A stretch of 47,369 nt of DNA from an uncultured Clostridia bacterium (GTDB lineage: Bacteria; Bacillota; Clostridia; Christensenellales; UBA1750): the NCBI GenBank assembly GCA_944383925.1, contig CALWRM010000019.1, forward strand, positions 1 to 47,369, written 5' to 3'. Every line of letters starts with the position of its first letter. Position 1 is the stretch's first letter. Shown piece by piece: positions 4,098 through 30,789 of the stretch. Below the pieces are notes generated by a model, which was not told the origin of the DNA, ran no database searches, and saw only the letters and a list, made by a program, of their open reading frames with translations. Position numbers and translations under genes: made by a program.

Positions 4098-6851
<2,754 letters not shown>

Positions 6852-6933
6852 GTTCGATTGATCCTCCAAATGCGTTCCGTTCCCTTGGGCCCAAGATCGC
6901 CAAGGGGATGGGAAACTTTTTGCTAACCAATTT

Positions 6934-6962
6934 ATTGTACCATTCTTGCACCATCTATTCAA
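6934..6962 (-). promoter_or_regulatory. sigma-A promoter for the secA operon
   Basis: Minus strand TTGAAT (6962-6957), 17-base spacer, TACAAT (6939-6934). It lies about 85 bases before the secA start codon and drives the secA-HAD-prfB-DUF1461-tsaD operon. Confidence 0.75.
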
Positions 6963-6977
6963 GGCAAAGCCCGTCTA

Positions 6978-6986
6978 TGGTATACT
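6978..6986 (+). promoter_or_regulatory. Possible extended -10 promoter for the membrane protein gene at 7069
   Basis: TGG followed by TATACT gives an extended -10 element; no convincing -35 hexamer is seen at 17 bases. It is back to back with the secA promoter. Confidence 0.4.
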
Positions 6987-7068
6987 GAAGCCATGTAAAA
7001 TCCTGCGTCCGCCTTGGAGAAGGGGACCCCTTCCAGGCTCTTGCTAGCAAAGGAGGCGATTTGAAAAG

Positions 7069-8934
7069 ATGGCCAATGCCCTGTGCGTGGCATATCTGCT
7101 TCTCTTTTTGTCCAGCGGGCTCGTCTATGCGGCGTTTTTGCCCGTCAAGCTTGCGTTCTTGCCCCGCGCGCTGCTGGGGCTGTGCTTCGGCTTGTTCTTG
7201 CTGATCTGGTTGCCCGCGCTCTATGCCTTCCTGCTGGGCTTTGCCCTGGCGGCCCAGCTGCTCGCCCTGGGCACCGCCATCTTGCCCGCGGCGCTGCTCT
7301 GCCTTTGGAAAAGGACGCCGCTCCAACGCCTGCGGCCGGCCGACCTGCCGGAGCTGAGGCGCTTGCTGTTCCAAACCCTGCCCATGCTCGCCCTGTGCGC
7401 CTGCCTGCTCTACACCCATGTGCTCCGCCCGCAGGACGGTTCCCTGCACACCGGCCAATCCTGCTACGGGGACATGGCCATGCATCTGGCCTTCATCACC
7501 TCCATCTCCCGCAACGCCAGCTTTCCGCCCCAGTACTCCATCCAGGTGGGCACGCAGATGGGCTATCCCTTTTTGTGCGACAGCGTCTCCTCCACCTTTC
7601 TCACCCTTGGGGGCAGCCTGCGCTTTGCCTATGTTCTGCCCATGCTTCCGGCCCTGTTCCTGGTGTTCGCCTGGTTCTATCTGCTGATGCGCGAGATGCT
7701 CTCCTCTCCGCGCAGCGCCACGCTGGCCTTTGTGCTGTTCTTCGTGGGCGGCGGCTTTGGCTTTGTCTATTTCCTGGATGGGGCTGCGGCGGACACCAGC
7801 CTCTTCACCCGCCTCTTCACCTCCTTTTACGAGACGCCTACCAATCTGGTTTCGGAGAACATCTATTGGGTCAATCCCATCTGCGACATGCTGATTCCCC
7901 AGCGGGCGACGCTCTTTGGCTGGGCCGCGCTGCTGCCCTGCCTGTATCTGTTGCTGCGCGCAGGCATCCAGGGCCAAGCGGAGCTTTTCTGGCCCCTCGC
8001 CATTTTGGCTGGCGGCCTGCCCCTGCTGCACTCCCATTCCTTCATGGCCCTTGGGGTGATCTCCGCCAGCGTGTTCGCCTGGCAGCTGATCCGCCGTCCC
8101 TCCTGCTGGAAGGGGTTCCTGCTGTACGCGGGCTTGGCGGCGGCCTTGGCCCTGCCACAGCTGCTGTGCTTTACCTTTCGCCAGGCGGCCGGGGAGGGCT
8201 TTATCAGGCTAACGTGGAACTGGATCAACGAACAGGATCCCTATCTATGGTTCTATATCAAGAATTGGGGCCTGGTCTTCCTGCTGCTTCCCTTCGCCCT
8301 GCTCAACGCCCGGGGCAAGCGGGGGCTATTCCTCTGTTCCCTTCCCCTCTGGGTCCTGGTCGAATGCCTGGTGTTTCAACCCAACGCCTATGACAACAAC
8401 AAGCTGCTCTTCGTCTGCTATATGTTGGCCTGCGGGCTTGTGGCGGACTTCCTGCTCTTCCTCTACGATCGTTTGGCCTTCCTCCGGGGACGCCGCCTGG
8501 CCGCGGCGCTGACGCTGGCGACGATGACCATCTCCGGCTGGCTGACCATTGGCCGGGAAATCGTCTCGGACTACGAGCTGTTCTCCAGCCAGCAGGTGGA
8601 AGCGGCCGCCTTCGCCGCCACGTTGCCCACGGACGCGGTCCTGCTCACCGCCGACGAGCACAACAACGCCTTTGCCTCCCTCTCGGGGTTGACCATCGTC
8701 CAGGGATCGCCCTCCTACCTCTATTTCCATGGCGTGTACGACGAGGAAAGGGCCCAGGATGTGCTGCGCATGTACACCGAGCCGGGCGCCTTGGCGCAGC
8801 TTGGGCCCAAGTACGGCGTGACCCACGTGGTGCTCAGCAACCATGAGCTGGCCATGGGCGCCGACGAACGCCTGTTTGCGGACCTTCCGCTGCTCTATGA
8901 CAGCGGGGGCATCCGCATCTATAGCGTTTCCTAA
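7069..8934 (+). CDS. Polytopic membrane protein, probably a GT-C-type glycosyltransferase
   Basis: A 621-residue protein with roughly a dozen hydrophobic segments. After four or five N-terminal membrane helices comes an extracytoplasmic stretch with YGDMAMHLAFITSIS (about residues 135-150) and MGYPFLCDS. An Asp followed by a His in the first large loop is the arrangement seen in GT-C glycosyltransferases, which take lipid-linked sugars at the outer membrane face. A soluble C-terminal domain (about residues 500-621) follows the last helix. AGGAGG at 7051-7056 precedes the ATG, somewhat far at 12 bases. Nothing shows the donor or acceptor; cell-envelope polymer glycosylation is a guess. Not in an operon with hpf: 185 bases separate them. 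Confidence 0.65.
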   Translation: MANALCVAYLLLFLSSGLVYAAFLPVKLAFLPRALLGLCFGLFLLIWLPALYAFLLGFALAAQLLALGTAILPAALLCLWKRTPLQRLRPADLPELRRLLFQTLPMLALCACLLYTHVLRPQDGSLHTGQSCYGDMAMHLAFITSISRNASFPPQYSIQVGTQMGYPFLCDSVSSTFLTLGGSLRFAYVLPMLPALFLVFAWFYLLMREMLSSPRSATLAFVLFFVGGGFGFVYFLDGAAADTSLFTRLFTSFYETPTNLVSENIYWVNPICDMLIPQRATLFGWAALLPCLYLLLRAGIQGQAELFWPLAILAGGLPLLHSHSFMALGVISASVFAWQLIRRPSCWKGFLLYAGLAAALALPQLLCFTFRQAAGEGFIRLTWNWINEQDPYLWFYIKNWGLVFLLLPFALLNARGKRGLFLCSLPLWVLVECLVFQPNAYDNNKLLFVCYMLACGLVADFLLFLYDRLAFLRGRRLAAALTLATMTISGWLTIGREIVSDYELFSSQQVEAAAFAATLPTDAVLLTADEHNNAFASLSGLTIVQGSPSYLYFHGVYDEERAQDVLRMYTEPGALAQLGPKYGVTHVVLSNHELAMGADERLFADLPLLYDSGGIRIYSVS

Positions 8935-8972
8935 CAAAGTGGCCTTCCATGTAAAGATTTGTCTTTCCGCCG

Positions 8973-9002
8973 GCAGGAAAACGCCCCTTGCTTCTCGAAT
9001 TG
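8973..9002 (+). promoter_or_regulatory. Candidate sigma-H-like promoter for hpf
   Basis: GCAGGAAAA at 8973-8981 resembles the -35 box of sigma-H promoters (RnAGGAwWW), and GAAT at 8997-9000 sits at the expected distance for the -10 box (RnnGAATww); the R position is C here. B. subtilis hpf (yvyD) is known to have a sigma-H promoter, which makes the match meaningful. Confidence 0.4.
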
Positions 9003-9119
9003 CTTATAACATCAGAAGAGATCAAACGAAGCGCCCAGCTGCCTCGTTTTGATGATAAACAGCCCAATGGGGCTGGCCCGCAAGCCGCTCCCCCCTTGGG
9101 CAGCAAGGAGGATTTGATC

Positions 9120-9644
9120 ATGCGCATCCAAATCACGGGCAGAAACATTGCCATTTCGGATCCAATTGCGAAATATGTGAACAAGCGGGTGGGCAAGTTT
9201 GACCGGCTGTTTGGCGACGATGTGGAGGCGCAGGTGCGCCTGAGCATCGACCGCTACCGCCAAATCTGCGAGGTCACCATCCCCCTGCGCGGCGTTACCC
9301 TGCGCGCGGAGGAAGCCACCAACGATATGTACACCTCCATCGACAACGTCATCGGCAAGCTGGAGCGGCAGATCCGCAAATACCGCACGCGCCTGGAGAA
9401 GCGCATGCGCCAGGATGCGGATACCGCGGAGGTGTACGAGGCTCCCTTCCAGGAGGCCGAGGCCGGCCAGCTGGTGCGCACCAAGCACTTCGCGTTGGAG
9501 CCCATGGATGTGGACAGCGCCATCGAGCAGATGGAGCTGCTGGGGCATAGCTTCTTCATGTTCAAGGATGAGCAAAGCGGAAGCATCCAGACCGTCTACA
9601 AGCGCACGGACGGCAATTATGGCCTGCTCATCCCCGATGATTAA
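9120..9644 (+). CDS. hpf: Ribosome hibernation promoting factor, long form
   Basis: Long HPF dimerises 70S ribosomes into inactive 100S particles in stationary phase. The 174-residue product begins MRIQITGRNIAISDPIAKYV, the beta-alpha-beta-beta-beta-alpha ribosome-binding domain (about 1-100). A charged linker follows, then the dimerisation domain (about 118-174) ending in VYKRTDGNYGLLIP. The start at 9120 is set by AGGAGG eight to ten bases upstream and by family alignment; 44 further codons upstream are open but do not match the family. It sits next to secA and prfB as in many Bacillota, but here it is divergent. A strong terminator follows. Confidence 0.96.
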   Translation: MRIQITGRNIAISDPIAKYVNKRVGKFDRLFGDDVEAQVRLSIDRYRQICEVTIPLRGVTLRAEEATNDMYTSIDNVIGKLERQIRKYRTRLEKRMRQDADTAEVYEAPFQEAEAGQLVRTKHFALEPMDVDSAIEQMELLGHSFFMFKDEQSGSIQTVYKRTDGNYGLLIPDD

Positions 9645-9680
9645 GGCATAAGGGCCCGGCCCGTACTTTCGGCGCAATAA

Positions 9681-11146: not shown

Positions 11147-12625
11147 ATGGCGCGCAAATCCACGCTGCGGCAGGTAGCGGCGCTCTCCTCCTCTTCCTTT
11201 GTTCTGCGGGCCATGGGCATGGCTTTTCGGATCTATTTGGGCCAACGCATGGGCACGGCCGGCCTGGGCCTCAACCAGCTGGTCATGTCCGTCTATATGT
11301 TCGCCACGCTGATCTGCTCCCAAGGCCTGTCCTCCGCGGTGCTTCGGCTCTGCGCCGAGAGGCCATCCTGCGCCAAGGCCATCGCCCTTCGGGCCAGCCG
11401 CATGGCCGCCTTGCTGGGCCTTGCGCTGGGCGCGGCCATGTTCTTTGGCGCTTTGCCCTTGAGCCGCGGCCCCTTGGAAGCCGAAAGCCTGCTCCCGCTC
11501 CGGCTTCTGGCGCCGGCCCTGCCCTTAACGGCGGTTTCTTCCTGCCTTCGCGGCTACTTTCTGAGCCAAAGCCAGGTCCCGAAGGTCACGGCTTGCCAGT
11601 TTCTCGAGCAGATCTTCCGCATCCTGCTTGCCATCCTCCTTTTGGAGAGCCATCGGGGGGCGGACGTGTACACCCTATGCTGCTTGCAGCTGCTGGCCAT
11701 GACCATCGGCGAGCTGGTCTCCCTCGCCTGCTACGCCCTCTTCTTCCTGCGCGCCCCCAAGGACGGCGCAAGCCCGCCGCCTGGCGTCTCCGGCAAGCTT
11801 TGCCGCATTGCGTTGCCCATCCTGCTGGCCACCTTGGTGCAATCCGGCATGCAGACCGTGGAGAACTTGCTCATTCCGCCTTTGCTTCGGCTTTCCGGCT
11901 CCAAGAGCGCGCTAGAGGAGTATGGCCTGCTTTCCGGCATGGTGATGCCCGTGCTCTTCTTTCCGGCCGCCATCCCCTCGGCCATCCTCACGGTGCAGCT
12001 TCCCGCGGCCGTGCGCCTCACCGCCCAGGGCAAGAAGGACTCCCTCCGGGCCCACCTGCGCAAAAGCCTGGGCGTTTCCATCGGGTTTTCCCTGTTCTGC
12101 GCCGCCCTGTTCTGCGGCCTAGCCCAGCCTTTGATGCAGACCCTGTATCACAACGAGGATGCGGGTTCCCTGCTCTTCCTGTTGGCGCCCCTGCTGCCCG
12201 CCCTGTATTTGGACCGCCTGGCGGACGGCCTGCTCAAATCCCTTGGCCGCCAAAGAGCCGCTCTATGGATGGAGCTGGGCGACTCCCTGCTGCGCCTGGG
12301 GCTGCTCTTCGTCCTGGTCCCGCGCCTGGGCCTGCACGGCCTGCTGGTCATCACCGCCGTCAGCGCCTGCGCGGGCTGCCTTTGCCGCATGAAGTGCCTG
12401 TTGCGCGCCTGCGGCTGCGGAAAGGGCGCGCTGTTGCGCAGCGCCCTGGGCTGTACGCCCAGCGTGTTGGGCGGGGCCGCCGCCCTGCTGGTTTGCCTGC
12501 TCTGCTCCTCCCTTCCCCTCCCCGCCTATGCCGCCGGCCTGCTGGGCCTGACGGCCGGCAGCCTGAGCTTTTTCCTGCTCTACTGCCTGGGGTTCCTACT
12601 CGCCCGCGGCCGGACATGCGCCTAG
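11147..12625 (+). CDS. SpoVB-like polysaccharide flippase (MVF/MOP superfamily)
   Basis: A 492-residue membrane protein with about 14 hydrophobic segments, beginning MARKSTLRQVAALSSSSFVL. The pattern of paired six-helix lobes and the conserved FRIYLGQRMGTAGLGL early segment place it with the stage V sporulation protein B and MurJ-like lipid-linked oligosaccharide flippases. In spore formers such proteins move cell-wall or cortex precursors across the membrane during engulfment. AAAGGAGG precedes the ATG. A sigma-E-like promoter upstream supports sporulation use. It could instead serve another polysaccharide pathway, since several paralogs exist in most Clostridia. Single-gene unit ended by a strong GC-rich hairpin. 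Confidence 0.8.
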   Translation: MARKSTLRQVAALSSSSFVLRAMGMAFRIYLGQRMGTAGLGLNQLVMSVYMFATLICSQGLSSAVLRLCAERPSCAKAIALRASRMAALLGLALGAAMFFGALPLSRGPLEAESLLPLRLLAPALPLTAVSSCLRGYFLSQSQVPKVTACQFLEQIFRILLAILLLESHRGADVYTLCCLQLLAMTIGELVSLACYALFFLRAPKDGASPPPGVSGKLCRIALPILLATLVQSGMQTVENLLIPPLLRLSGSKSALEEYGLLSGMVMPVLFFPAAIPSAILTVQLPAAVRLTAQGKKDSLRAHLRKSLGVSIGFSLFCAALFCGLAQPLMQTLYHNEDAGSLLFLLAPLLPALYLDRLADGLLKSLGRQRAALWMELGDSLLRLGLLFVLVPRLGLHGLLVITAVSACAGCLCRMKCLLRACGCGKGALLRSALGCTPSVLGGAAALLVCLLCSSLPLPAYAAGLLGLTAGSLSFFLLYCLGFLLARGRTCA

Positions 12626-12744
12626 GAACGGCGCTTAAATGGCAGGCTTTTCGGCTGGGCAGCGGCGCCATGCCCTTCTCGCTCCACCGGGCGAGCGCCT
12701 GCCTCCATCCGGCCAAGCGCCCGGAACCGGCGTCAATGCGACGA

Positions 12745-12775
12745 GGCCCCCGCCCGGTGAACCCGGGCGGGGGCC
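12745..12775. terminator. GC-rich hairpin between convergent genes
   Basis: A 13-base perfect stem (12745-12757 with 12763-12775) between the convergent flippase and zapA genes. Only TTCT follows on the plus strand, so the U-tract is weak; probably a shared terminator. Confidence 0.55.
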
Positions 12776-12793
12776 TTCTACGCGGTCGCGGAG

Positions 12794-13099
12794 CTATGCC
12801 TTTGTCTCCCGACCCGACTGCTTCTTTTCCTTTTCCAGAGCGCGCAGGGCGCGCTGGAGCTCCAGCATCTCCCGACGCAGGGCGGCCATGTCGTCCTTGG
12901 CCTTGAACAGCTCGTCGGCGATGTTGATGGCCGTCAGCGTGGCTAGGCGTTGTTCTCCCATGCGGCCAAGGTACTCGATTTCCTCCATGCGCCTGGACAC
13001 ATACTGGGCCACGCGCTGCATGTATTCCGGGGTTTCGGCGCCCAAAATGGTATACTCCAGGCCGTGCACGCGCACCACAGCCCTGTTCTTCTCTGCCAA
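12794..13099 (-). CDS. zapA: Cell division protein ZapA
   Basis: ZapA bundles FtsZ protofilaments and stabilises the Z ring. The 101-residue product has the globular N-terminal domain (VRVHGLEYTILGAETPEYMQ, about 9-28) and the family motif ATLTAINIADELFKAKD near 53-69. A C-terminal coiled-coil helix (about 65-101, rich in Arg, Glu and Leu) gives the tetramer. The start codon is TTG at 13099, chosen because AGGAGG lies nine bases before it and no ATG gives the full N-terminal strand. It lies downstream of pheT with its own promoter inside the pheT 3' end, a common gene order in Bacillota. Confidence 0.93.
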   Translation of the reverse strand: MAEKNRAVVRVHGLEYTILGAETPEYMQRVAQYVSRRMEEIEYLGRMGEQRLATLTAINIADELFKAKDDMAALRREMLELQRALRALEKEKKQSGRETKA

Positions 13100-13131
13100 A
13101 GAGCCACGCCTCCTTTCGCGTCCTTGTCTCT

Positions 13132-13160
13132 AGTATAGACAAAAACCGTCAGGAACGCAA
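13132..13160 (-). promoter_or_regulatory. Promoter for zapA, inside the end of pheT
   Basis: Minus strand TTGCGT (13160-13155), 17-base spacer, TATACT (13137-13132). It overlaps the last codons of pheT. Confidence 0.6.
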
Positions 13161-15548
13161 CACGGCATTGAATTTTGCCTTCGCCATTTCCAGGCACTTG
13201 TCGAAGATGGCGTTGATTTCCGCGTCGGTGAGGGTGCGGTCCTCGGCCTGCAGCATCAGGGAGATGGCCACGGATTTCTGGCCCTTGGCGATCGGGTGGC
13301 CGCGGTAGATATCAAACAGGCGCGCCTCCTGGCACAGCTTGCCGGCGCAGCGCTTGAGCTCCTCCAGCAGCTCGCCCACGGCCACGGATTCGTCCATCAC
13401 CAGCGCCATATCCCTTTGCACCATGGGGAAGCGCGCGGGGGCCTTGATCTTGCCCACGAGCCCGCTCAGGCGATCCAGCGCCTCCAGGTCCAGCTCGGCC
13501 ACATAGGCCTCGCCCTCCAGAGCGAAGCGCTCCGCCACGTCGGGATGCGCCTGGCCGAGCACCGCGATGACCTGACCGTCCGCCACCGCCTGGGCCGCGC
13601 GGCCGGGGTGCAGATAGGCGGCGGAGCTGCGCTCAAAGCGCACGCCCTCCAGGCCGAAGCGCTCGAAGATGGTCTCCACCAAACCCTTGAGCCGGTAGAA
13701 GTCCATGCCGCCGCCATAGGCGCCCAGGCAAAGGCTCGGCCGCTCCTCAGGCTGTTCGGTCAAGGGCAGCGCCTTTGGCAGGAAGCGCACGCCCAGCTCG
13801 AAGCAGCCAAAGGCCGCGCGGGAACGGCTGTAATTGATGCCCATGGTGTTGAGCAGCGAGGGGATGAGGGTGGTGCGCATGATGGAATAGTCCTCGCCGA
13901 TGGGGTTGAGGATGCGGGCCGCCTTGCGCTCGGGAGCGTCCTGGGGCAGGCGCAGCCAATCCAGCCACTTGGGGCTGATGAAGGAATAGCTGATGGTCTC
14001 ATACAGTCCAAAGCCCAGCAGCATCGGCCGCAGCAGGCTGTTGCGCTCCAGGGTAGCGTTCAGGCGGCCGCCCTTGACCTCGCCGCGCAGGCTCGTTTCG
14101 GGAATGTTGTCATAGCCGTACAGGCGCAGGACCTCCTCGGCGATGTCCGCGCCGCTGTGGATATCCTGGCGGTGCACCGGCGGGGTACAGAGCAGGCAAT
14201 CGCCGCTGATCGTTGTGCGGATGCACAGCTTCTCCAGGATGGCGACCATCTCCTCGGGGGGCACGTCGATGCCCATGAGGGTTTGCACATAGCCGACGGG
14301 GGCCTTGACCAGCTCCTCGGGCTTGGGGTTGGGATAGATATCGATCACGCCGTCCACGACCTCGCCGGCGCCCAGCTCCTGCACGAGCTGCACGGCCCGA
14401 TCCAAGGCCAGGCGAACCAGCTTTTCGTTGACCCCATGCTCGAAACGGCCCTGCGCCTCGGTGCGCAGGCCCAGCGCCCGGCCGGTCTGGCGGATGGAGG
14501 CGCCGTCGAAGCAAGCGGACTCAAAGAGGACCAGCTTGGTGTTTTCGGTGATTTCCGACCCCTCGCCGCCCATGACGCCCGCCAGGCCCGTGGCGCCGCT
14601 CTCATCGGCGATGACCAGCATCTCCGGGCTTAGCTGGCGATCCTTGCCGTCCAGGGTGCGCAGCTGTTTGGTCTCCCCGGCCTTGCGCACGATGATGTGC
14701 CTGCCCGCCACGGAATCCAAATCGAAGGCGTGCATGGGCTGGCCCATCTCCAGCATGACGAAGTTGGTGATGTCCACGATGTTGTTGATGGGGCGCACGC
14801 CCGCCGCATGCAGGAACTGGCGCATCCACAGCGGGGAGGGCTCGATCTTGATGTTCTTGACCACGCGCGCGCAATACCGGCGGCAGAGGGTTTCGTCCTC
14901 CACGTCGATGCGCACATGCTCGTTCACATCGCCCTGCATGGGCGCAAGCTGCACCTTCAGCTCCTTCATCGTTCCGCCCGCGGCGGCCGCGGATTCATAG
15001 GCCAGGCCGAGAACGGACAGGCAGTCGGGCCGGTTGGCCAGGATCTCGAAGTCCACCACCTGCTCGTCCAAGCCGAGCACCGGCTTGATGTCCTCGCCGA
15101 TGGTCGGTTCGCCCTGCAGGATCAGCAGGCCGTGGTCCGTATTGGAGGGATAGACCTCCTGGGGCACCCCAAGCTCCTCGCCGGAACACATCATGCCGTT
15201 GGAAACGACGCCGCGCAGCTTGCCCTTCTTGATCTTGACGCCCCCGGGCAGGTGGGACCCGTCCAGGGCCACGGGCACATAGTCGCCCGCCTGCATGTTG
15301 TTTGCGCCGGTCACGATCTGCACCGGTTCCTCCTGGCCAACGTCCACCTGGCAGATGGACAGGTGGTCGGAGTCGGGGTGCTTGACCACCTCCAAAATGC
15401 GGCCGACAACCACCTTGTCGATTTCCGCGCCGAGGTCCTTGACGTCCTCCACGGCGTTGCCGGCCATGATCATGCTCTTGGCATAGGCCTGCACGTCCGG
15501 GTTGTCCAGGGTGATGTATTCTTGAAGCCACTTCATGGGCAACAGCAT
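13149..15548 (-). CDS. pheT: Phenylalanine--tRNA ligase beta subunit
   Basis: The beta subunit of the cytoplasmic alpha2-beta2 PheRS, which binds tRNA-Phe and edits Tyr-tRNA-Phe. The 799-residue length is normal. In order there are an N-terminal OB-fold tRNA-binding domain (about 40-150, with HPDSDHLSIC), the B3/B4 editing domain (about 210-390, with NNIVDITNFVMLEMGQPMHA), the B5 domain, a catalytic-like core (RPMLLGFGLYETISYSF), and a C-terminal anticodon-binding FDX-ACB domain ending MAKAKFNAVLRS. It begins six bases after the pheS stop and is co-transcribed behind the T-box leader. Confidence 0.98.
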   Translation of the reverse strand: MLLPMKWLQEYITLDNPDVQAYAKSMIMAGNAVEDVKDLGAEIDKVVVGRILEVVKHPDSDHLSICQVDVGQEEPVQIVTGANNMQAGDYVPVALDGSHLPGGVKIKKGKLRGVVSNGMMCSGEELGVPQEVYPSNTDHGLLILQGEPTIGEDIKPVLGLDEQVVDFEILANRPDCLSVLGLAYESAAAAGGTMKELKVQLAPMQGDVNEHVRIDVEDETLCRRYCARVVKNIKIEPSPLWMRQFLHAAGVRPINNIVDITNFVMLEMGQPMHAFDLDSVAGRHIIVRKAGETKQLRTLDGKDRQLSPEMLVIADESGATGLAGVMGGEGSEITENTKLVLFESACFDGASIRQTGRALGLRTEAQGRFEHGVNEKLVRLALDRAVQLVQELGAGEVVDGVIDIYPNPKPEELVKAPVGYVQTLMGIDVPPEEMVAILEKLCIRTTISGDCLLCTPPVHRQDIHSGADIAEEVLRLYGYDNIPETSLRGEVKGGRLNATLERNSLLRPMLLGFGLYETISYSFISPKWLDWLRLPQDAPERKAARILNPIGEDYSIMRTTLIPSLLNTMGINYSRSRAAFGCFELGVRFLPKALPLTEQPEERPSLCLGAYGGGMDFYRLKGLVETIFERFGLEGVRFERSSAAYLHPGRAAQAVADGQVIAVLGQAHPDVAERFALEGEAYVAELDLEALDRLSGLVGKIKAPARFPMVQRDMALVMDESVAVGELLEELKRCAGKLCQEARLFDIYRGHPIAKGQKSVAISLMLQAEDRTLTDAEINAIFDKCLEMAKAKFNAVLRS

Positions 15549-21857: not shown

Positions 21858-21886
21858 TTGTGCCCAATATTTTACCATGGTATACT
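21858..21886 (+). promoter_or_regulatory. Promoter of the acetyltransferase-glycyl radical enzyme operon
   Basis: TTGTGC (21858-21863), 17-base spacer, TATACT (21881-21886), about 80 bases before the acetyltransferase start. Confidence 0.65.
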
Positions 21887-21964: not shown

Positions 21965-23158
21965 ATGATCATTCGCAAAATAACGGCCGAGGAGCTCGAC
22001 GCCTTCGAGCGCGTGCAGGCGGTCTGCTTCACCTTTCCCATGAAGGAAGAAAAGCGGGAGGAGCCGCCCAAGCTGCCGGAAAACGGCGACTACTGGGGGT
22101 CCTTCACGGACGAGGGCGTGTTCCAGGGCGGCATGATCGCCAACCACTATCTTTGCCGCGTCGGCGGCGCCCAGCACAAGATGGCGGGCATCGGCGGCGT
22201 CACCACCTTGCCGGAGTTCCGCCGCGGCGGCGCCATCCGCGCCATCTTTCGGGAGATGTTCCAGGACCTGAAGTCCAAGGGCTTCGTGCTCAGCGGGCTT
22301 TATCCCTTCTCCCACGCCTTTTACCGCAAGTTCGGCTACGAAATCAGCTACACCATCGATTATTACCGGCTGCCCGTTTCCGAGCTGCTGGGCTACCCCC
22401 AGCCCAAGAGCGCCTACATGGCCGTGGCATCCGAGCGTCTGGACCAGGTGCGCGCCATCTACGAGGCCTTTTGCCAGGAGCGCAGCCTGACCCTGGCCCG
22501 TCCCCGTGACGAGGACTGGAAGCAGGTGTGGTCCGGCGACCCCTATAAGGAAAGAAAATACCGCTACATCCTCTACAACGACCAGGACCAGCCCTGCGCC
22601 TACGTCTGCTTCTTCGTAAATTGGAAGGAGTGGGAAAAGGAGCCCCGCACCCTGGATGTGCGCGAGCTGTGCTTTATCGACAAGCCCTCCCTCTATCTGG
22701 CGCTGGGCTTCCTCTCCCGCTTCCATCCCCACTACAACAACGTCAACCTGCTTCTCCCCTCCGACGTCTACTTCACAGCCCTGCACAAAAACCCCTACGA
22801 GGTGGACCCCAATCCCGGTCACAACTACATGATGCGCATCCTCGACGTGCCCGCCTTCCTGGATAAGCTGGATTGCCCCGAGGGCGCGGGCTGTGTGACC
22901 TTGGAACTGCGCGACGATTTTCTGCCCGAAAACGCGGGGATGTACACCATCCGCTGGGATGGCGGCAAGCTGTGCAGCCAGCGGGGCGGCCAGGACCCGG
23001 ACATCCGCCTGGACCAAACCTCCCTCACCCAGCTGGCCATGGGCTTTATGCCCATCGACCGCCTGCGCTTCCGCCAGGATGTGGAGCTGATCCGCAACAA
23101 GTCGCAGATCGACGCCCTGTTCCCCCAGCGCGCCCTGTTCGTGGGCGACCGCTACTAG
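21965..23158 (+). CDS. Eis-like GNAT N-acetyltransferase with SCP2-like C-terminal domain
   Basis: A 397-residue protein of the Eis/COG4552 type. The first GNAT domain (about 1-150) has the acetyl-CoA loop GGVTTLPEFRRGGAIRAIF and the FSHAFYRKFGYE segment. A second, degenerate GNAT domain follows. The C-terminal part (about 300-397) has the SCP2-like fold seen in Eis, with TLELRDDFLPENAG and a terminal LALFVGDRY-like end (FVGDRY). Characterised Eis proteins acetylate amines of aminoglycosides or proteins, but the substrate here is unknown. ATG 21965 follows AAGAGAGG; longer frames overlap the divergent promoter. It ends three bases before the glycyl radical activase, so it is first in that operon. 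Confidence 0.88.
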   Translation: MIIRKITAEELDAFERVQAVCFTFPMKEEKREEPPKLPENGDYWGSFTDEGVFQGGMIANHYLCRVGGAQHKMAGIGGVTTLPEFRRGGAIRAIFREMFQDLKSKGFVLSGLYPFSHAFYRKFGYEISYTIDYYRLPVSELLGYPQPKSAYMAVASERLDQVRAIYEAFCQERSLTLARPRDEDWKQVWSGDPYKERKYRYILYNDQDQPCAYVCFFVNWKEWEKEPRTLDVRELCFIDKPSLYLALGFLSRFHPHYNNVNLLLPSDVYFTALHKNPYEVDPNPGHNYMMRILDVPAFLDKLDCPEGAGCVTLELRDDFLPENAGMYTIRWDGGKLCSQRGGQDPDIRLDQTSLTQLAMGFMPIDRLRFRQDVELIRNKSQIDALFPQRALFVGDRY

Positions 23159-23161
23159 GCC

Positions 23162-23998
23162 ATGAAGGGCTTGGTCTTTCACGTAGAGGAGTTTGCCGTC
23201 TTCGACGGTCCTGGTTTGCGCACGGCCGTGTTTCTGAAGGGGTGTCCCCTGCGTTGCAACTGGTGCCACAACCCGGAGGGATTGGAAATGCGGGTACAGC
23301 GCCTGAAAAACGCGGAGCGCTGCACCCATTGCGGGGCTTGCGTGCGGGCCTGTCCCAACCCTGGACAGCCCTGCACCGCCTGCGGACGCTGTCTGCCCGC
23401 CTGCCGGCAGGGGCTTTTGAGCCTCAGCGGCGAGTGGATGGAGGCCTCGGAGCTGGCCGGACGGCTGCTCCGCAACCGCGCCCTGCTGCAAGGGGTGAGC
23501 TTCACCGGCGGCGAGGCCCTGTTGCAGCCGGATTTTATGCTGGAAACCATCTCCCTGTTGGACGGCCTGCACTGCCTGGTGGAGACCTGCGGCCACGTGC
23601 CTTCAAGGGATTTTCGCCGGGTCTGCGCCGCCCTGGATATGGTCTATTTCGACGTCAAGCTGGCCGACAGCCAGCAGCATCGCCGCTACACGGGCCAGGG
23701 CAACGAGCTGATTCTGGAAAACCTGGCCTGGCTCAAGCGCGAGGGGCCGCCCTTCGTGGCGCGCGTGCCCCTGATTCCCGGCGTCAACGACGGGGCGGAC
23801 AACCTCGAGGCCACCGCCGCGCTGCTGGAGGGCGCCCCCAGGCTGTTGCGGGTGGAGCTTTTGCCCTACAACAAGAACGCCGGGGCCAAATACTCGCTGC
23901 TTTCCCTGGCATACCGGCCCTCCTTTGACGAAAGCCGGCCCATAAACGCCGACGTCGCTCCCTTTACCCGGCACGGATTGGAGGCAAGAGTGCTATGA
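23162..23998 (+). CDS. Glycyl radical enzyme activase (radical SAM)
   Basis: A 278-residue radical SAM enzyme that makes the glycyl radical on its partner enzyme. The N-terminus has the SAM-binding [4Fe-4S] motif CPLRCNWC (C28, C32, C35) and the family sequence VFDGPGLRTAVFLKGC. An insert (about 54-80) with CTHCGACVRACP and CTACGRCLPAC holds two more ferredoxin-like clusters, as in activases of glycerol dehydratase and related enzymes but not PFL. SFTGGEALLQPDF is the conserved GGE motif. Its stop overlaps the start of the enzyme gene (ATGA), giving one-to-one coupling. Confidence 0.95.
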   Translation: MKGLVFHVEEFAVFDGPGLRTAVFLKGCPLRCNWCHNPEGLEMRVQRLKNAERCTHCGACVRACPNPGQPCTACGRCLPACRQGLLSLSGEWMEASELAGRLLRNRALLQGVSFTGGEALLQPDFMLETISLLDGLHCLVETCGHVPSRDFRRVCAALDMVYFDVKLADSQQHRRYTGQGNELILENLAWLKREGPPFVARVPLIPGVNDGADNLEATAALLEGAPRLLRVELLPYNKNAGAKYSLLSLAYRPSFDESRPINADVAPFTRHGLEARVL

Positions 23999-26055
23999 CG
24001 GAAAACCTCAAAAGGCTGCTTGACTTTGTGCAGAGCGGACAAAACAAGGGCCAGCGCCGCGAGCTTAGCCCCGAGCGCTTCGCCCAGCTTCAGGAGGCCA
24101 TCGTGCAGGCCGGTCCCTCCCTGAGCCTGCGGGCGGCCAGGCGGCTTTCGCTGTTTCTGGCGGAGGAAACCACCCAGGCGCTTCCCTTCGAGCGCATCGT
24201 GGGCCGCCGAAGCCTGACCGTCTTTCCGGACATCTACCTGCCCGGCGAGCGGGAGGCGCTGCAAAGCGGCCACTACGTGCACGAGCAGGGCCGGGTCTGC
24301 AACATCTCCAGCGACTGGGGGGCCGTGCTGCGGGAAGGGCTCTGGCCCCGGCGCGAGCGCGCCCTGCAAACCCTGCGGGAGAACGGCCAGGCGGACGCCG
24401 ATTTTCTCCGCGCGGCCGTGGAAACCATCGACGCCGTCACGGCCTTTTGCGACCGCTGGGCGGACGCGCTGCACCAAAGCGGCCAGGCCGAGGCGGGCAA
24501 GGGCCTGCGCTTGGCCGTGCGCTGCGGCGCCCAGAGCTTCCGCGACGCCTTGCAGCTGTTCCGCCTGCTGCACTTTTGCCTGTGGGCCTCCAACGTCTAC
24601 CACAATACCGTCGGCCGCTTCGATCAGTACATGCTGCCCTTCCTCCAGGCGGACCTGGCCTGCGGCCTGCTGGACGAGGACGCGGCCCAGGATCTGCTGG
24701 AGGAGTTCTTCCTCAGCTTCAACCGGGACTCCGACCTATACCAGGGCATGCAGCAGGGGGACAACGGCCAGAGCCTGATGCTGGGCGGCTGCGATGCCGA
24801 CGGCGCCTGCGCGGTGAACCAGCTGACGGCCATGTGTCTTAAGGCCAGCCTACACCTGGGCCAGATCGATCCCAAGATCAACCTGCGCGTGGACAAGAAC
24901 ACCCCCCTTTCGCTGTATGAATTGGGCGCGCAGCTCACGCGCCAGGGCCTGGGCTTTCCCCAATACGCCAACGACGACGTGGTCATTCCGGGCCTGGTGC
25001 GCCTGGGCTATGCGCTGGAGGACGCGCGCAACTTCACCGTGGCCGCCTGCTGGGAGTTCATCATCCCCGGCGTGGCCATGGACATCCCCAACATCGCCGC
25101 CATGCCCTTGGCCGGCGTGGTGGACGGCTGCATTCGCCGGTGCTTGGCCGGCTGCCAGCGCTTTGAGGATCTGCTGCAGGATGTGCGCGAGGCCATCTTC
25201 CAAAAGGCCGACGAGCTCCTGGCCCCCCTCAGCCCCCTGTTCCTGGAGCCGGCGCCCTTCCAATCCGTGCTGATGGACGGCTGTCTGGAACGCGGACAGG
25301 ACATCTCCAAGGGCGCCAAGTACAACAACTACGGCGTGCATGGGACCGGCTTTTCCCAGGCCGTGGACCAGCTGCTGGCGGTCAAGGCGCTGGTGTTCGA
25401 GGGAGATCTTACCCCGGAGCGCCTGCTCCGCGGCATGGAGACCGCCTTTGCGGACGATGCGGAGCTGCTCTACACGCTGCGCAACAAGGCGCCCAAGCTT
25501 GGCCGGGACGAGGAGGCCCTGCCCTTGGCGGATGAACTCCTCGGCTACTTCGCCGACAGCCTGCGCGGCAGGACCAACGAGCGCGGCGGTTGCTTCCGGC
25601 CAGGCACAGGCTCGGCCATGTACTACCTATGGCACGCCGACGAGCTGGGCGCGCTGGCCGATGGCCGCCTGCCCGGCGAGCCGTTGGCTGCCAACTTCTC
25701 CCCCTCCCTGGCCCTCAAGGACGCGGGCCCCCTTTCGGTGCTTCGGGCCTTCGCCCGGCCCAAGGTGCTGGACACCATCAACGGCGGCCCGCTGACGCTG
25801 GAGCTGCACGACACTGTCTTCCGCGGCGAGGAAGGGCTCACCAAAGTGGCCATGCTGGTCAAGGGCTTCATCGACTTGGGCGGCCATCAGCTTCAGCTGA
25901 ACACCGTCAACCACGAGACCCTGCTGGACGCCCAGGCCCATCCGGAAAGGCATGAGAACCTGATCGTCCGCGTCTGGGGTTGGAGCGGCCGCTTCGTGCT
26001 GTTGGACAAGGCCTACCAGGACCAGATCATCGCGCGCACCGCCTACGGCCTGTAG
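23995..26055 (+). CDS. Glycyl radical enzyme of unknown substrate (PFL/glycerol dehydratase superfamily)
   Basis: An oxygen-sensitive cytoplasmic glycyl radical enzyme of 686 residues, clearly shorter than the usual 760-850. The N-terminal RVCNISSDWGAVLREGL (about 100-116) and the barrel segment NTVGRFDQYMLPFLQADL fit the superfamily. The thiyl cysteine is C352 within AACWEF; Cys-x-Glu (C352, E354) is the arrangement of dehydratase- and lyase-type members, not the Cys-Cys of true PFL. The radical glycine is G662 in RVWGWSGRF; the residue after it is Trp, where the family nearly always has Tyr (RVxGY). The substrate cannot be read from the sequence. The gene is coupled to its activase and followed by a serine hydrolase. 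Confidence 0.9.
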   Translation: MTENLKRLLDFVQSGQNKGQRRELSPERFAQLQEAIVQAGPSLSLRAARRLSLFLAEETTQALPFERIVGRRSLTVFPDIYLPGEREALQSGHYVHEQGRVCNISSDWGAVLREGLWPRRERALQTLRENGQADADFLRAAVETIDAVTAFCDRWADALHQSGQAEAGKGLRLAVRCGAQSFRDALQLFRLLHFCLWASNVYHNTVGRFDQYMLPFLQADLACGLLDEDAAQDLLEEFFLSFNRDSDLYQGMQQGDNGQSLMLGGCDADGACAVNQLTAMCLKASLHLGQIDPKINLRVDKNTPLSLYELGAQLTRQGLGFPQYANDDVVIPGLVRLGYALEDARNFTVAACWEFIIPGVAMDIPNIAAMPLAGVVDGCIRRCLAGCQRFEDLLQDVREAIFQKADELLAPLSPLFLEPAPFQSVLMDGCLERGQDISKGAKYNNYGVHGTGFSQAVDQLLAVKALVFEGDLTPERLLRGMETAFADDAELLYTLRNKAPKLGRDEEALPLADELLGYFADSLRGRTNERGGCFRPGTGSAMYYLWHADELGALADGRLPGEPLAANFSPSLALKDAGPLSVLRAFARPKVLDTINGGPLTLELHDTVFRGEEGLTKVAMLVKGFIDLGGHQLQLNTVNHETLLDAQAHPERHENLIVRVWGWSGRFVLLDKAYQDQIIARTAYGL

Positions 26056-26117
26056 TCCGCTTTTCCTCCATCCACCGCAGCGGCGCGCCCCTACACGACG
26101 AAAGAAGGTTGGTTTTC

Positions 26118-27299
26118 TTGAACTTTCAACCCATGAAGGACTTCATGAACGCCCTGACCGCCTGGATCTATCCGGGCAATTCCATCGTGGTGTACAAGGA
26201 CCACGAGGAGGTTTTCCGCTACCAGTCCGGCTTTGCCAACCTGGAAAAGGCCATCCCCATGGGCGGCGAGGAGCTGTTCAACATCTACTCCTGTTCCAAG
26301 GTGGCCACGGTTGTCAGCGCGTTGCAGCTATACGAACGGGGCCGCTTTCTCCTCTCCGATCCCTTGAGCGAGTTTTTTCCCGAGTATCGGGACATGTATG
26401 TGCGCGACGCCAAGGGCCGGGTGGAAAAGGCCGAAAACCCCATCACCCTGCGGCACCTGTTCACCATGACCGCGGGCTTTAGCTACGACATGAGCACCGC
26501 CGCCTTCCAGCGCGCCCGCGACCTGACCCAGGGCCGCATGGACACCCTGTCCGTCGTCCGCTGCCTGGCGGAGGATCCTCTCTCCTTCGAGCCGGGGTCC
26601 CATTGGCAGTACAGCCTCTGCCACGACGTGCTGGCGGCCGTGGTGGAGCTGATCTCCGGCATGCGCTTTTGCGATTATGTGCGCAAAAACATCTTCGAAC
26701 CCCTGGGCATGGCCGATAGCTATTACCACCTAACGCCCCAGCTGGAGGCGCGCATGGCCGAGCAATACACCTTCGTCACGGCCGACAGCGCGGGCCAGCG
26801 CCTGGAGGAGCTGCAAAGCGCCAAGCAGAGCGACCAGGGCGCGGTGCAAAACGTGGGCAAGTCCGCCAGCTACCGTCTGGGCAGCCAATACGACAGCGGC
26901 GGCGCGGGCATCATCACCAGCGTCTGCGATTATGCCAAGTTTGCCTGCGCGTTGGCCAACGGCGGCGTCGGCCCCAACGGCGAGAGGATTCTCAGCGCCG
27001 GCACCATCGAGCTGTTGCGCGCCAACCAGCTGGGGCCCGTCCAGCTGGAGGACTACAATTGGCCGCAGCTGGCCGGCTACGGCTATGGTCTTGGCGTGCG
27101 CACCATGATGGACCGCGCCCGCAGCGGGTCCAACGGCTCCGTGGGCGAATTCGGATGGGGCGGCGCCGCGGGCGCCAACGTGCTGGTGGACCCGGACAGG
27201 CATGTTTCCCTGTTCTTCGCCCAACACATGCTCAACCCCCACGAGGAGCACTACCAACCCAGGCTTCGCAACGTGCTCTACGCCTGCCTACAGGACTGA
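26118..27299 (+). CDS. Serine hydrolase of the class C beta-lactamase / EstB family
   Basis: A 393-residue protein with the beta-lactamase fold. The catalytic SxxK is S58-C-S-K61, and the Tyr motif is Y165-S-L (YSL, as in EstB esterases, where beta-lactamases have YxN). A third motif GEFGWGGAAGAN replaces KTG. No signal peptide is seen, so it is probably cytoplasmic and an esterase or amidase rather than a resistance enzyme. The start is TTG 26118, chosen because AGAAGG lies nine bases upstream, while ATG 26133 is 24 bases away. It follows the glycyl radical enzyme by 62 bases and shares its terminator; it may process the substrate or product of that enzyme (inference). Confidence 0.85.
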   Translation: MNFQPMKDFMNALTAWIYPGNSIVVYKDHEEVFRYQSGFANLEKAIPMGGEELFNIYSCSKVATVVSALQLYERGRFLLSDPLSEFFPEYRDMYVRDAKGRVEKAENPITLRHLFTMTAGFSYDMSTAAFQRARDLTQGRMDTLSVVRCLAEDPLSFEPGSHWQYSLCHDVLAAVVELISGMRFCDYVRKNIFEPLGMADSYYHLTPQLEARMAEQYTFVTADSAGQRLEELQSAKQSDQGAVQNVGKSASYRLGSQYDSGGAGIITSVCDYAKFACALANGGVGPNGERILSAGTIELLRANQLGPVQLEDYNWPQLAGYGYGLGVRTMMDRARSGSNGSVGEFGWGGAAGANVLVDPDRHVSLFFAQHMLNPHEEHYQPRLRNVLYACLQD

Positions 27300-27320
27300 C
27301 GGTTTTCGATCAACAAAAAA

Positions 27321-27345
27321 AGCAACGGGAGACCGTTGCTTTTTT
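27321..27345. terminator. Bidirectional terminator between convergent genes
   Basis: Eight-base stem AGCAACGG/CCGTTGCT (27321-27328, 27333-27340) with a GAGA loop, T-run on the plus side and A-run on the other, so it serves the serine hydrolase and the M42 peptidase genes. Confidence 0.9.
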
Positions 27346-29709: not shown

Positions 29710-29786
<77 letters not shown>

Positions 29787-29817
29787 ATATTCTCCGCGCT
29801 TTGGCTGGCGACAGTAT

Positions 29818-29895
29818 GGTGGATATAGCTCAGTTGGTTAGAGTGCCAGGTTGTGGCCCTGGAGGTCGTGGGTTCGAGCCCCACTATTCACCCCA
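29818..29895 (+). tRNA. tRNA-His (anticodon GTG), CCA encoded
   Basis: Anticodon loop TTGTGGC gives GTG. An extra G at 29818 (position -1) faces discriminator C73, the histidine identity element. Confidence 0.96.
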
Positions 29896-29971
29896 TTTTT
29901 TCTCGCCTTTCACGGCATGTCCCCCTTCTCTTTCCCCGCTTTGGGTTGCAGGGTGAATGGGCTTGCAGCGT

Positions 29972-30046
29972 TGGGGTGTCGCCAAGTGGTAAGGCACGGG
30001 ACTTTGACTCCCGCATTCGTAGGTTCGAGTCCTGCCACCCCAGCCA
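29972..30046 (+). tRNA. tRNA-Gln (anticodon TTG), CCA encoded
   Basis: Acceptor TGGGGTG/CACCCCA; anticodon loop CTTTGAC gives TTG. Confidence 0.96.
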
Positions 30047-30057
30047 TTCTTTCACAA

Positions 30058-30133
30058 GACCCATTAGCTCAGTTGGCAGAGCACTTGACTTTTAATCAAG
30101 GTGTCCGGAGTTCGAATCTCCGATGGGTCACCA
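30058..30133 (+). tRNA. tRNA-Lys (anticodon TTT), CCA encoded
   Basis: Acceptor GACCCAT/ATGGGTC; anticodon loop CTTTTAA gives TTT. Confidence 0.96.
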
Positions 30134-30156
30134 AGGTTTTTGTCCATTGGAGATAT

Positions 30157-30240
30157 GCGGGCGTGGCGGAATGGCAGACGCGCCAGACTTAGGATCTGGT
30201 GCCCTAGGGCGTATGAGTTCAAGTCTCTTCGCCCGCACCA
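30157..30240 (+). tRNA. tRNA-Leu (anticodon TAG), CCA encoded
   Basis: Acceptor GCGGGCG/CGCCCGC, a long variable arm (GCCCTAGGGCG region) and anticodon loop CTTAGGA, giving TAG. Confidence 0.95.
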
Positions 30241-30267
30241 ACCTCCCCAATGGTTTCTCCCTTAAAT

Positions 30268-30342
30268 GCGGTAGTAGCTCAGTGGTAGAGTGCCACCTTG
30301 CCAAGGTGGATGTCGCGAGTTCGAATCTCGTCTACCGCTCCA
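30268..30342 (+). tRNA. tRNA-Gly (anticodon GCC), CCA encoded
   Basis: Acceptor GCGGTAG/CTACCGC; anticodon loop TTGCCAA gives GCC. Confidence 0.96.
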
Positions 30343-30418
30343 CTCTTTTCTTGGGGTTCGGCCTTTGCCGGTGCGGCTTGGGATCGCCATGGTTGCCGGC
30401 GCCCGCAGGGCCACGCGC

Positions 30419-30492
30419 GCGGGTGTAGCTCAATGGTAGAGTTCCAGCCTTCCAAGCTGGCTGTGTGGGTTCGATTCCCATCACCCGCTCCA
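30419..30492 (+). tRNA. tRNA-Gly (anticodon TCC), CCA encoded
   Basis: Acceptor GCGGGTG/CACCCGC; anticodon loop CTTCCAA gives TCC. Confidence 0.96.
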
Positions 30493-30510
30493 TTTTTCCC
30501 CATCCTGTAT

Positions 30511-30586
30511 GGACCGCTAGCTCAGTTGGTAGAGCACCTGACTCTTAATCAGGGTGTCCAGGGTTCGAGTCCCTGGCGGTCCACCA
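30511..30586 (+). tRNA. tRNA-Lys (anticodon CTT), copy 1
   Basis: Acceptor GGACCGC/GCGGTCC; anticodon arm CCTGA CTCTTAA TCAGG gives CTT. Identical to copy 2. Confidence 0.96.
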
Positions 30587-30611
30587 AGCCATACTTCTCC
30601 TGTTTCTTCAT

Positions 30612-30687
30612 GGACCGCTAGCTCAGTTGGTAGAGCACCTGACTCTTAATCAGGGTGTCCAGGGTTCGAGTCCCTGGCGGTCCACCA
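30612..30687 (+). tRNA. tRNA-Lys (anticodon CTT), copy 2
   Basis: Same sequence as copy 1; a tandem duplication with short, different spacers. Confidence 0.96.
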
Positions 30688-30713
30688 GAAAAGGGGAAGT
30701 ATGGTTCTTCTAT

Positions 30714-30789
30714 GGACCGCTAGCTCAGCTGGTAGAGCACCCGACTCTTAATCAGGGTGTCCAGGGTTCGAGTCCCTGGCGGTCCACCA
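30714..30789 (+). tRNA. tRNA-Lys (anticodon CTT), copy 3, variant anticodon stem
   Basis: Differs from copies 1 and 2 by C for T in the D-loop and by C for T at position 29. The latter turns the T29-A41 pair into a C-A mismatch in the anticodon stem. The rest of the tRNA is intact. Confidence 0.93.

Follow-up and report, generated by a model that had tools for sequence, protein, structure and literature searches.

Glycyl radical enzymes (GREs) of the eliminase class carry a conserved Cys-x-Glu (CxE) motif (PMC7077986). The members of this class with solved structures include glycerol dehydratase (GD), propanediol dehydratase and PflD, and it is now known that PflD and YbiW are radical lyases of 1,5-anhydromannitol-6-phosphate and 1,5-anhydroglucitol-6-phosphate (PMC12441222; PDB titles). 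Here, we describe a GRE, an oxygen-sensitive radical enzyme, encoded on contig CALWRM010000019.1 (assembly GCA_944383925.1) of an uncultured, anaerobic Clostridia bacterium of gut type, of which we analysed a stretch of 47,369 nucleotides (hereafter, the window). This enzyme belongs to a discrete monophyletic subfamily, which we call RVWGW after its radical loop, and whose members share a Trp-Gly-Trp sequence, an Asn at position 103, and a QQGDNGQS loop. With moderate confidence, we interpret it as an inducible C-O eliminase that acts on a sugar, a polyol, or a close derivative, probably releasing water or a comparable group.

The RVWGW subfamily

A scan of GTDB genomes recovered 48 loci with a GRE that is 40-62% identical to that of the window, in most cases across its entire length, and the next matches fall to about 33% identity and correspond to PflD-type enzymes. 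In a tree of 61 GREs, the 44 subfamily rows are split off by one branch with a support of 100 and a stem of 1.35 changes per column, and the window GRE lies within a 13-row group that also has a support of 100. The subfamily alignment comprises 49 sequences, and the survey of genomic context covers 72 loci, including a few contigs that were fetched twice. The hosts are found among Clostridia, other Bacillota, Verrucomicrobiota, Lentisphaeria, Kiritimatiellae, Planctomycetota, and Spirochaetota; many members derive from herbivore gut metagenomes, and when the window's class was sampled evenly, 20 out of 391 genomes had one. A literature search of open papers, with subscription journals outside its scope, returned no paper on an RVWGW GRE, its only match being an unrelated paper. 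The subfamily is sizeable, coherent, and new, and its function is not known from the papers and databases searched.

Two relatives have unusual gene structures. In locus L065, a GRE-like open reading frame (ORF) of 677 aa (12078-14108) matches without the C-terminal radical domain and is followed by a separate 77-aa ORF (14164-14394) that resembles a glycyl radical domain, with 45% identity to that of the window; the pair could represent a split gene, a frameshift, or a spare-part arrangement. A subfamily GRE (G135:C13:40867-42822) has one in-frame TGA, which could reflect an assembly error or a pseudogene. Outside the subfamily, the short GREs of loci L009 and L013 (G022:C32 and G007:C35) share with the window enzyme their shortness (708-771 aa), the Cys-Trp-Glu sequence (as GCWE), and the Trp after the radical Gly, but they have Ser before this Gly (RVSGW) and form a separate, likewise uncharacterised clade. 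The window's genome also encodes a second divergent GRE of 731 aa with an RVTGF loop, which is about 24% identical to the first. Its locus, G000:C90 (L159:4397-6589 -, 6614-7657 -, 7808-8932 +, 8963-9679 +), also encodes a dedicated activase, a short-chain dehydrogenase, and, divergently, a GntR/LacI-like regulator. GREs of comparable length (about 730 aa) and identity are found in the family genomes G004, G008, and G009.

Comparison with characterised enzymes

The window GRE is not in a CHARACTERISED cluster: it scores far under every NCBIfam equivalog cut-off tested, with 236 bits against a cut-off of 1100 for HypD (NF043068), 161 against 1050 for CutC (TIGR04394), 195 and 177 against 1000 for the sulfopropanediol dehydratases HpfG and HpsG (NF048009 and NF048011), 259 against 1109 for PflD (PRK09983), and 277 against 678 for the PFL2/glycerol dehydratase subfamily TIGR01774. 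Moreover, two of the four residues taken as marks of B12-independent glycerol/propanediol dehydratases are replaced by Asn. In a single-sequence search of the PDB, the best-scoring solved relatives are GD with 259 bits, PflD with 240, and propanediol dehydratase with 235; we take this as the fair ranking, given that a profile search is biased to PflD by five PflD-type rows in the profile alignment. In VIA-align, PflD, an Archaeoglobus GRE, GD, and propanediol dehydratase are tied at Z values of 38-40 and rmsd values of 2.8-2.9, which cannot rank the eliminases against each other. A previous reading, made from the sequence alone and before any database search (hereafter, the sequence-only reading), had taken this enzyme for a divergent GRE that should fall outside characterised clusters (for example, those of glycerol dehydratase, CutC, or HypD), and the equivalog scores, the PDB search, and the tree agree on this for all the families tested.

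PflD (E. coli 8yjo and S. dysgalactiae 8id0) shares with the window GRE the full-length eliminase fold (Z 39.7, rmsd 2.8, 675 residues), the CxE motif, an activase of its own, and, at the beta-3 aromatic site, a Gly in place of the Tyr found in GD and YbiW. We also count as a likeness that it acts on a sugar derivative. On the other hand, PflD is only about 33% identical and about 80 residues longer, it has His and Asp where the window GRE has Asn103 and Asn366, and its loop reads RVAGY instead of RVWGW (both PflD and YbiW from E. coli have Ala-Gly-Tyr, as opposed to the Trp-Gly-Trp of the subfamily). In E. coli, it is adjoined by phosphotransferase system (PTS) genes. Glycerol dehydratase from C. 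butyricum (1r8w) and propanediol dehydratase (5i2a and 9rco) have in common with the window GRE the CxE motif, the fold (Z 39.0), and His281, which corresponds to His203. They differ in that His164 and Asp447 are Asn in the window GRE, the GD loop contrasts with the polar QQGDNGQS, and the radical Gly of the window enzyme is flanked by Trp; no diol-utilisation genes were seen near it. HypD, or trans-4-hydroxy-L-proline dehydratase, is also an eliminase but differs in its substrate loop and in the beta-1 residue His160. Finally, CutC and the IslA/HpsG eliminases share the fold, the CxE motif, and the activase, while the scores against CutC, HpfG, and HpsG reach only 160-195 bits for cut-offs of 1000-1050, and neither microcompartment nor sulfonate genes were seen near the GRE.

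Active site and radical loop

The window GRE presents the features of its superfamily that can be read from sequence and genomic context, namely a PFL-like barrel (PF02901, 250 bits for a cut-off of 24), a Gly_radical domain (PF01228, 61 bits for a cut-off of 22), a Cys loop, an R-V-x-G-[YFW] loop, and a cognate activase, and its CxE motif (C352-W353-E354) sits within VAACWEFIIPG. The subfamily alignment has 109 near-invariant positions. Among them, C352 and G662 are invariant throughout, and W661, G662, and W663 were found in all 49 aligned members, a degree of conservation beyond chance. The sequence-only reading had described a short GRE (686 aa) with C352-x-E354 and a Trp after the Gly in RVWGW, and had taken Cys-x-Glu as the mark of a dehydratase or lyase-like enzyme; the two motifs are conserved across the subfamily, and the class assignment agrees with both the published motif (PMC7077986) and the nearest solved relatives.

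Position 103 is Asn in the 45 members that have this column, whereas the beta-1 residue is His in GD and HypD, Asp in CutC, and Gln in IslA. Asn366, at the place of GD Asp447, is likewise found throughout the subfamily. For the GD residues His164 (structure 1r9d), His281, Glu435, and Asp447, the equivalents are Asn103, His203, Glu354, and Asn366. The stretch from Asp245 to Ser260, DSDLYQGMQQGDNGQS, which contains QQGDNGQS, is almost wholly invariant and is placed between beta-2 and beta-3, a region that bears substrate-contacting residues in other eliminases (PMC7077986 and PMC8473560). In an AlphaFold2 model of the ligand-free enzyme, the mean pLDDT is 90.7, but it drops below 50 for residues 250-258, as might be expected for a loop that becomes ordered upon ligand binding. 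Residue pairing within this loop is uncertain, as two alignments place a 5-residue gap differently; for this reason, and given its disorder in the model, the pairing of residue 252 with GD Phe333 was dropped. N103, N366, and the near-invariant polar loop lead us to predict a pocket with an unusual abundance of hydrogen-bonding groups, as would suit a polyhydroxylated substrate.

Genomic context in relatives

The GRE is accompanied by an adjacent activase of the same family in 66 of the 72 subfamily loci; of the six others, at least two are truncated where the contig ends. The gene upstream of the GRE in L031 and L051 was considered as a divergent activase and rejected, since it has no CX3CX2C motif. 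In the window, the activase scores 220 bits against TIGR02494 (cut-off 174) and has the motif CPLRCNWC at residue 28 plus two ferredoxin-type Cys clusters, so the suggestion in the sequence-only reading of a divergent GRE with its own activase is well founded. We regard the activase and the GRE as the functional unit.

Two kinds of regulators recur beside this unit: AraC-type proteins with a cupin-like sensor, most of them encoded divergently, and LacI-type proteins. The zone within 3 kb of the GRE makes up 42% of the bases and contains 26 AraC matches vs 10 beyond (binomial p 3e-4) and 14 LacI matches vs 1 beyond (p 5e-5), with neither value corrected for relatedness. A separate Pfam tally agrees, with 12 AraC and 7 LacI among 131 near genes and at most one of each among 121 far genes. 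Sugar genes are also found in this context. For instance, L066 has an operon in which the genes of a CUT2 importer (binding protein, two RbsC, and RbsA) are followed by LacI, activase, and GRE; in L034, where a CUT2 importer is likewise part of the operon, the order is FucI-like isomerase, binding protein, RbsC, RbsC, RbsA, activase, GRE, and LacI; and in L024, a CUT2 importer is divergent from LacI-GRE-activase. In L023, the locus nearest to the window in the tree, a FucI-like isomerase and an FGGY kinase adjoin LacI-activase-GRE. GH127 genes are near the GRE in L028, L038, and L049, and other loci have GH2, GH3, GH43, GH94, trehalase- or raffinose-synthase-type, aldose epimerase, or PfkB kinase genes. 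In addition, L021 and L038 have palindromes centred on AACGTT 5′ of the unit, that of L021 being perfect over 20 bases, and AAATATTAACGTTAATATTT and TAACATTAACGTTATTGTTA are candidate binding sequences for the LacI proteins of these two loci. Taken together, the conserved context points to sugars.

Attempts to derive the substrate from these neighbours were less informative. The nearest solved relatives of the LacI proteins are PurR and then general sugar regulators; those of the CUT2 binding protein are assorted ribose- and monosaccharide-type proteins, none of them decisive; and those of the FGGY kinase are the unspecific set of xylulokinase, gluconate kinase, glycerol kinase, and AI-2 kinase. 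The FucI-like protein had no match among solved structures. In congener G001 (locus L101), an operon of class II aldolase (FBA), PfkB, and FucI-like genes is tail to tail with the GRE unit, but its candidacy as a GRE partner is weakened by the window's own genome, where the same set (G000:C99, L160:1944-5246) is unlinked to the GRE.

Proposed reaction and alternatives

By analogy with the GRE eliminase class, whose Gly and Cys loops, fold, activase, and CxE motif it has, we infer that the enzyme carries out a radical elimination, and C-O cleavage is suggested because every one of the nearest solved relatives breaks a C-O bond, in either a diol or an anhydro-sugar phosphate. As for the type of substrate, the enrichment of LacI and AraC regulators, the CUT2 importer, the FucI-like isomerase, the FGGY kinase, the glycoside hydrolases, and the palindromes argue for a sugar, a polyol, or a near derivative. 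Upon anaerobic induction, the activase would place a radical on Gly662, which would be passed to Cys352, and the resulting thiyl could abstract hydrogen from a C-H beside a hydroxyl of the substrate, a polyhydroxylated molecule that Glu354, Asn103, His203, and the polar QQGDNGQS loop would keep in place. A hydroxyl or a ring or alkoxy oxygen on the neighbouring carbon would then be eliminated, giving a deoxy-carbonyl product that could enter glycolysis or central metabolism. The substrate would most likely be a monosaccharide, a polyol, or a closely derived compound that originates in plant glycans, and in many lineages its sensor would be a LacI or AraC regulator.

Several observations weigh against this interpretation. 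No single sugar gene is common to all the loci, their contexts are mixed, and in L029, L030, and L043, the neighbours are housekeeping genes. In the window itself, there is neither a regulator nor a transporter beside the activase-GRE unit, and the linkage seen in L101 and absent in L160 may be due to chance. In gut Clostridia, genes for carbohydrate use are frequent, and LacI and AraC proteins can sense molecules other than sugars, the nearest solved LacI relatives being purine repressors. It is only tentatively that we propose a more specific version, in which the subfamily may catalyse an undescribed GRE reaction, the radical C-O elimination of an unphosphorylated sugar or polyol that CUT2 imports or glycosidases release, with an isomerase and a kinase acting further down the pathway.

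Alternatively, the enzyme could be an anhydro-sugar lyase like PflD and YbiW, converting an anhydro-alditol, free or as the 6-phosphate, into a 1-deoxyketose through ring-opening radical C-O cleavage. The place of PflD among the closest solved relatives, the substrates of both lyases (PMC12441222), and the beta-3 Gly that the subfamily shares with PflD speak for this proposal, yet we consider it unlikely in view of the low identity, the replacement by Asn of the His and Asp that PflD and GD share, and the lack of PTS genes among the annotated neighbours, although no search was aimed at PTS. Less likely still is the cleavage of C-N or C-S bonds or the use of another substrate class, as in CutC, HypD, or IslA. 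The eliminase fold supports both bond types, and a few loci have non-sugar neighbours, such as an HpaB-type protein (L025) and an isochorismatase-GNAT fusion (L102), but the scores against CutC, HypD, and HpsG are far too low, and amine or sulfonate genes do not recur. We give even less credence to a drifted dehydratase of small diols (glycerol or 1,2-propanediol); GD is the best single-sequence match, the CxE motif is present, and His203 matches GD His281, but Asn103 and Asn366 replace the GD residues throughout the subfamily, and no microcompartment, Pdu, or 1,3-propanediol genes were seen among the annotated neighbours.

The locus in the window

The sugar or polyol eliminase proposed here is encoded in the window between two further genes, for an acetyltransferase and a serine hydrolase (Table 1). 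The four genes are co-directional, with a gap of 3 bases between acetyltransferase and activase, an ATGA overlap between activase and GRE, and 62 bases between GRE and hydrolase. The sequence-only reading had reported this arrangement, and ORF reading, Pfam, and the terminator scan confirm the genes, their positions, their spacing, and the terminator. It had also invoked one promoter, which is only plausible: TTGTGC followed after 17 bases by an extended -10 element (TGgTATACT, 21878-21886) can be read directly in the sequence, but a scan of the + strand ahead of the acetyltransferase gene gave no consensus sigma-70 site.

Table 1. Positions in the window of the genes, signals, and GRE residues discussed in the text
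Feature	Position	Strand	Basis or remark
Plausible promoter: TTGTGC, 17 bases, extended -10 TGgTATACT	21858..21886	+	Read by eye
Eis-like GNAT acetyltransferase with SCP2-like domain, 397 aa	21965..23158	+	ATG start; Pfam PF13527, PF17668, PF13530
Radical-SAM GRE activase, 278 aa	23162..23998	+	TIGR02494; Radical_SAM + Fer4; CX3CX2C + two ferredoxin-type clusters
GRE, eliminase (CxE) type, RVWGW subfamily, 686 aa	23995..26055	+	PF02901 + PF01228
Asn103 codon	24301..24303	+	Aligns with catalytic His164 of glycerol dehydratase, barrel strand beta-1
Residues 245-260, DSDLYQGMQQGDNGQS, nearly invariant polar loop before beta-3	24727..24774	+	Alignment columns; pLDDT
Cys352-Trp353-Glu354, thiyl-radical Cys and CxE glutamate	25048..25056	+	Invariant in subfamily alignment; aligns with Cys and Glu of GD and PflD
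Glycyl radical loop Arg659-Val-Trp-Gly662-Trp663	25969..25983	+	Alignment
Serine hydrolase, class C beta-lactamase / family VIII esterase fold (SCSK, YSL), 393 aa	26118..27299	+	TTG start; PF00144
Intrinsic terminator	27316..27345	+	13-pair stem, T-rich tail; found by scan

The acetyltransferase has the Pfam domains Acetyltransf_9, Acetyltransf_17, and SCP2_2 and scores 60 bits against the equivalog of the aminoglycoside acetyltransferase Eis, under its cut-off of 576. The serine hydrolase matches the Beta-lactamase family PF00144 with 177 bits and scores 128 bits against the equivalog of the methyl acetate hydrolase AcmB, under its cut-off of 550. In the subfamily loci searched, this acetyltransferase was not found beside the GRE except for one weak, distant match (L058, 4.4 kb away and on the opposite strand), nor was this serine hydrolase in the other loci searched. 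Hydrolase relatives do occur in the family genomes G002, G005, and G008, where they and the subfamily GRE are on separate contigs. In L102 (G002), an isochorismatase-GNAT fusion gene (7669-8724) ends at the start of the subfamily GRE, its acetyltransferase being of a type unlike that of the window.

Congener G001 has an acetyltransferase that is 65% identical and occupies the same syntenic position, followed downstream by the same M42 peptidase, RdgB/HAM1-type, and YfcE-type genes, without an activase, GRE, or hydrolase beside it. Between the acetyltransferase and M42 genes, it has instead a peptidase S51 gene and a short GNAT fragment, and its own GRE and activase are on a different contig. 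Since G001 keeps the acetyltransferase and downstream genes without the GRE genes, the acetyltransferase gene seems to have been there first, with the activase and GRE genes, with or without that of the hydrolase, arriving behind it as a cassette, which removes the basis for an amine-acetylation step. The acetyltransferase is thus a co-directional neighbour that is probably not part of the GRE function, and both it and the hydrolase are chance neighbours rather than conserved partners. A single pathway in which an amine is acetylated, the GRE acts, and an ester or amide is hydrolysed, as the sequence-only reading had suggested from the four tightly packed genes and their one terminator, is therefore highly improbable and already largely refuted, given that only one of the three neighbours, the activase, is conserved with the GRE. 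Further along the window (29710-30789), there are ten consecutive tRNA genes, including three adjoining copies of tRNA-Lys(ctt).

Significance

GRE eliminases have repeatedly turned out to be the key step of overlooked anaerobic pathways, such as those for hydroxyproline, choline, isethionate, and anhydro-sugars. The RVWGW subfamily is coherent and widely distributed, is served by dedicated regulators, and has an unusual radical loop. The regulators and transporters found beside it narrow the substrates to a short list, which makes its function directly testable. The Trp-Gly-Trp loop also offers natural variation for the study of how activases recognise the radical site. If the enzyme does act on an unphosphorylated substrate fed by CUT2, gut anaerobes would have a second branch of radical-mediated sugar breakdown, one that does not depend on PTS and whose enzyme has two tryptophans flanking its radical glycine.

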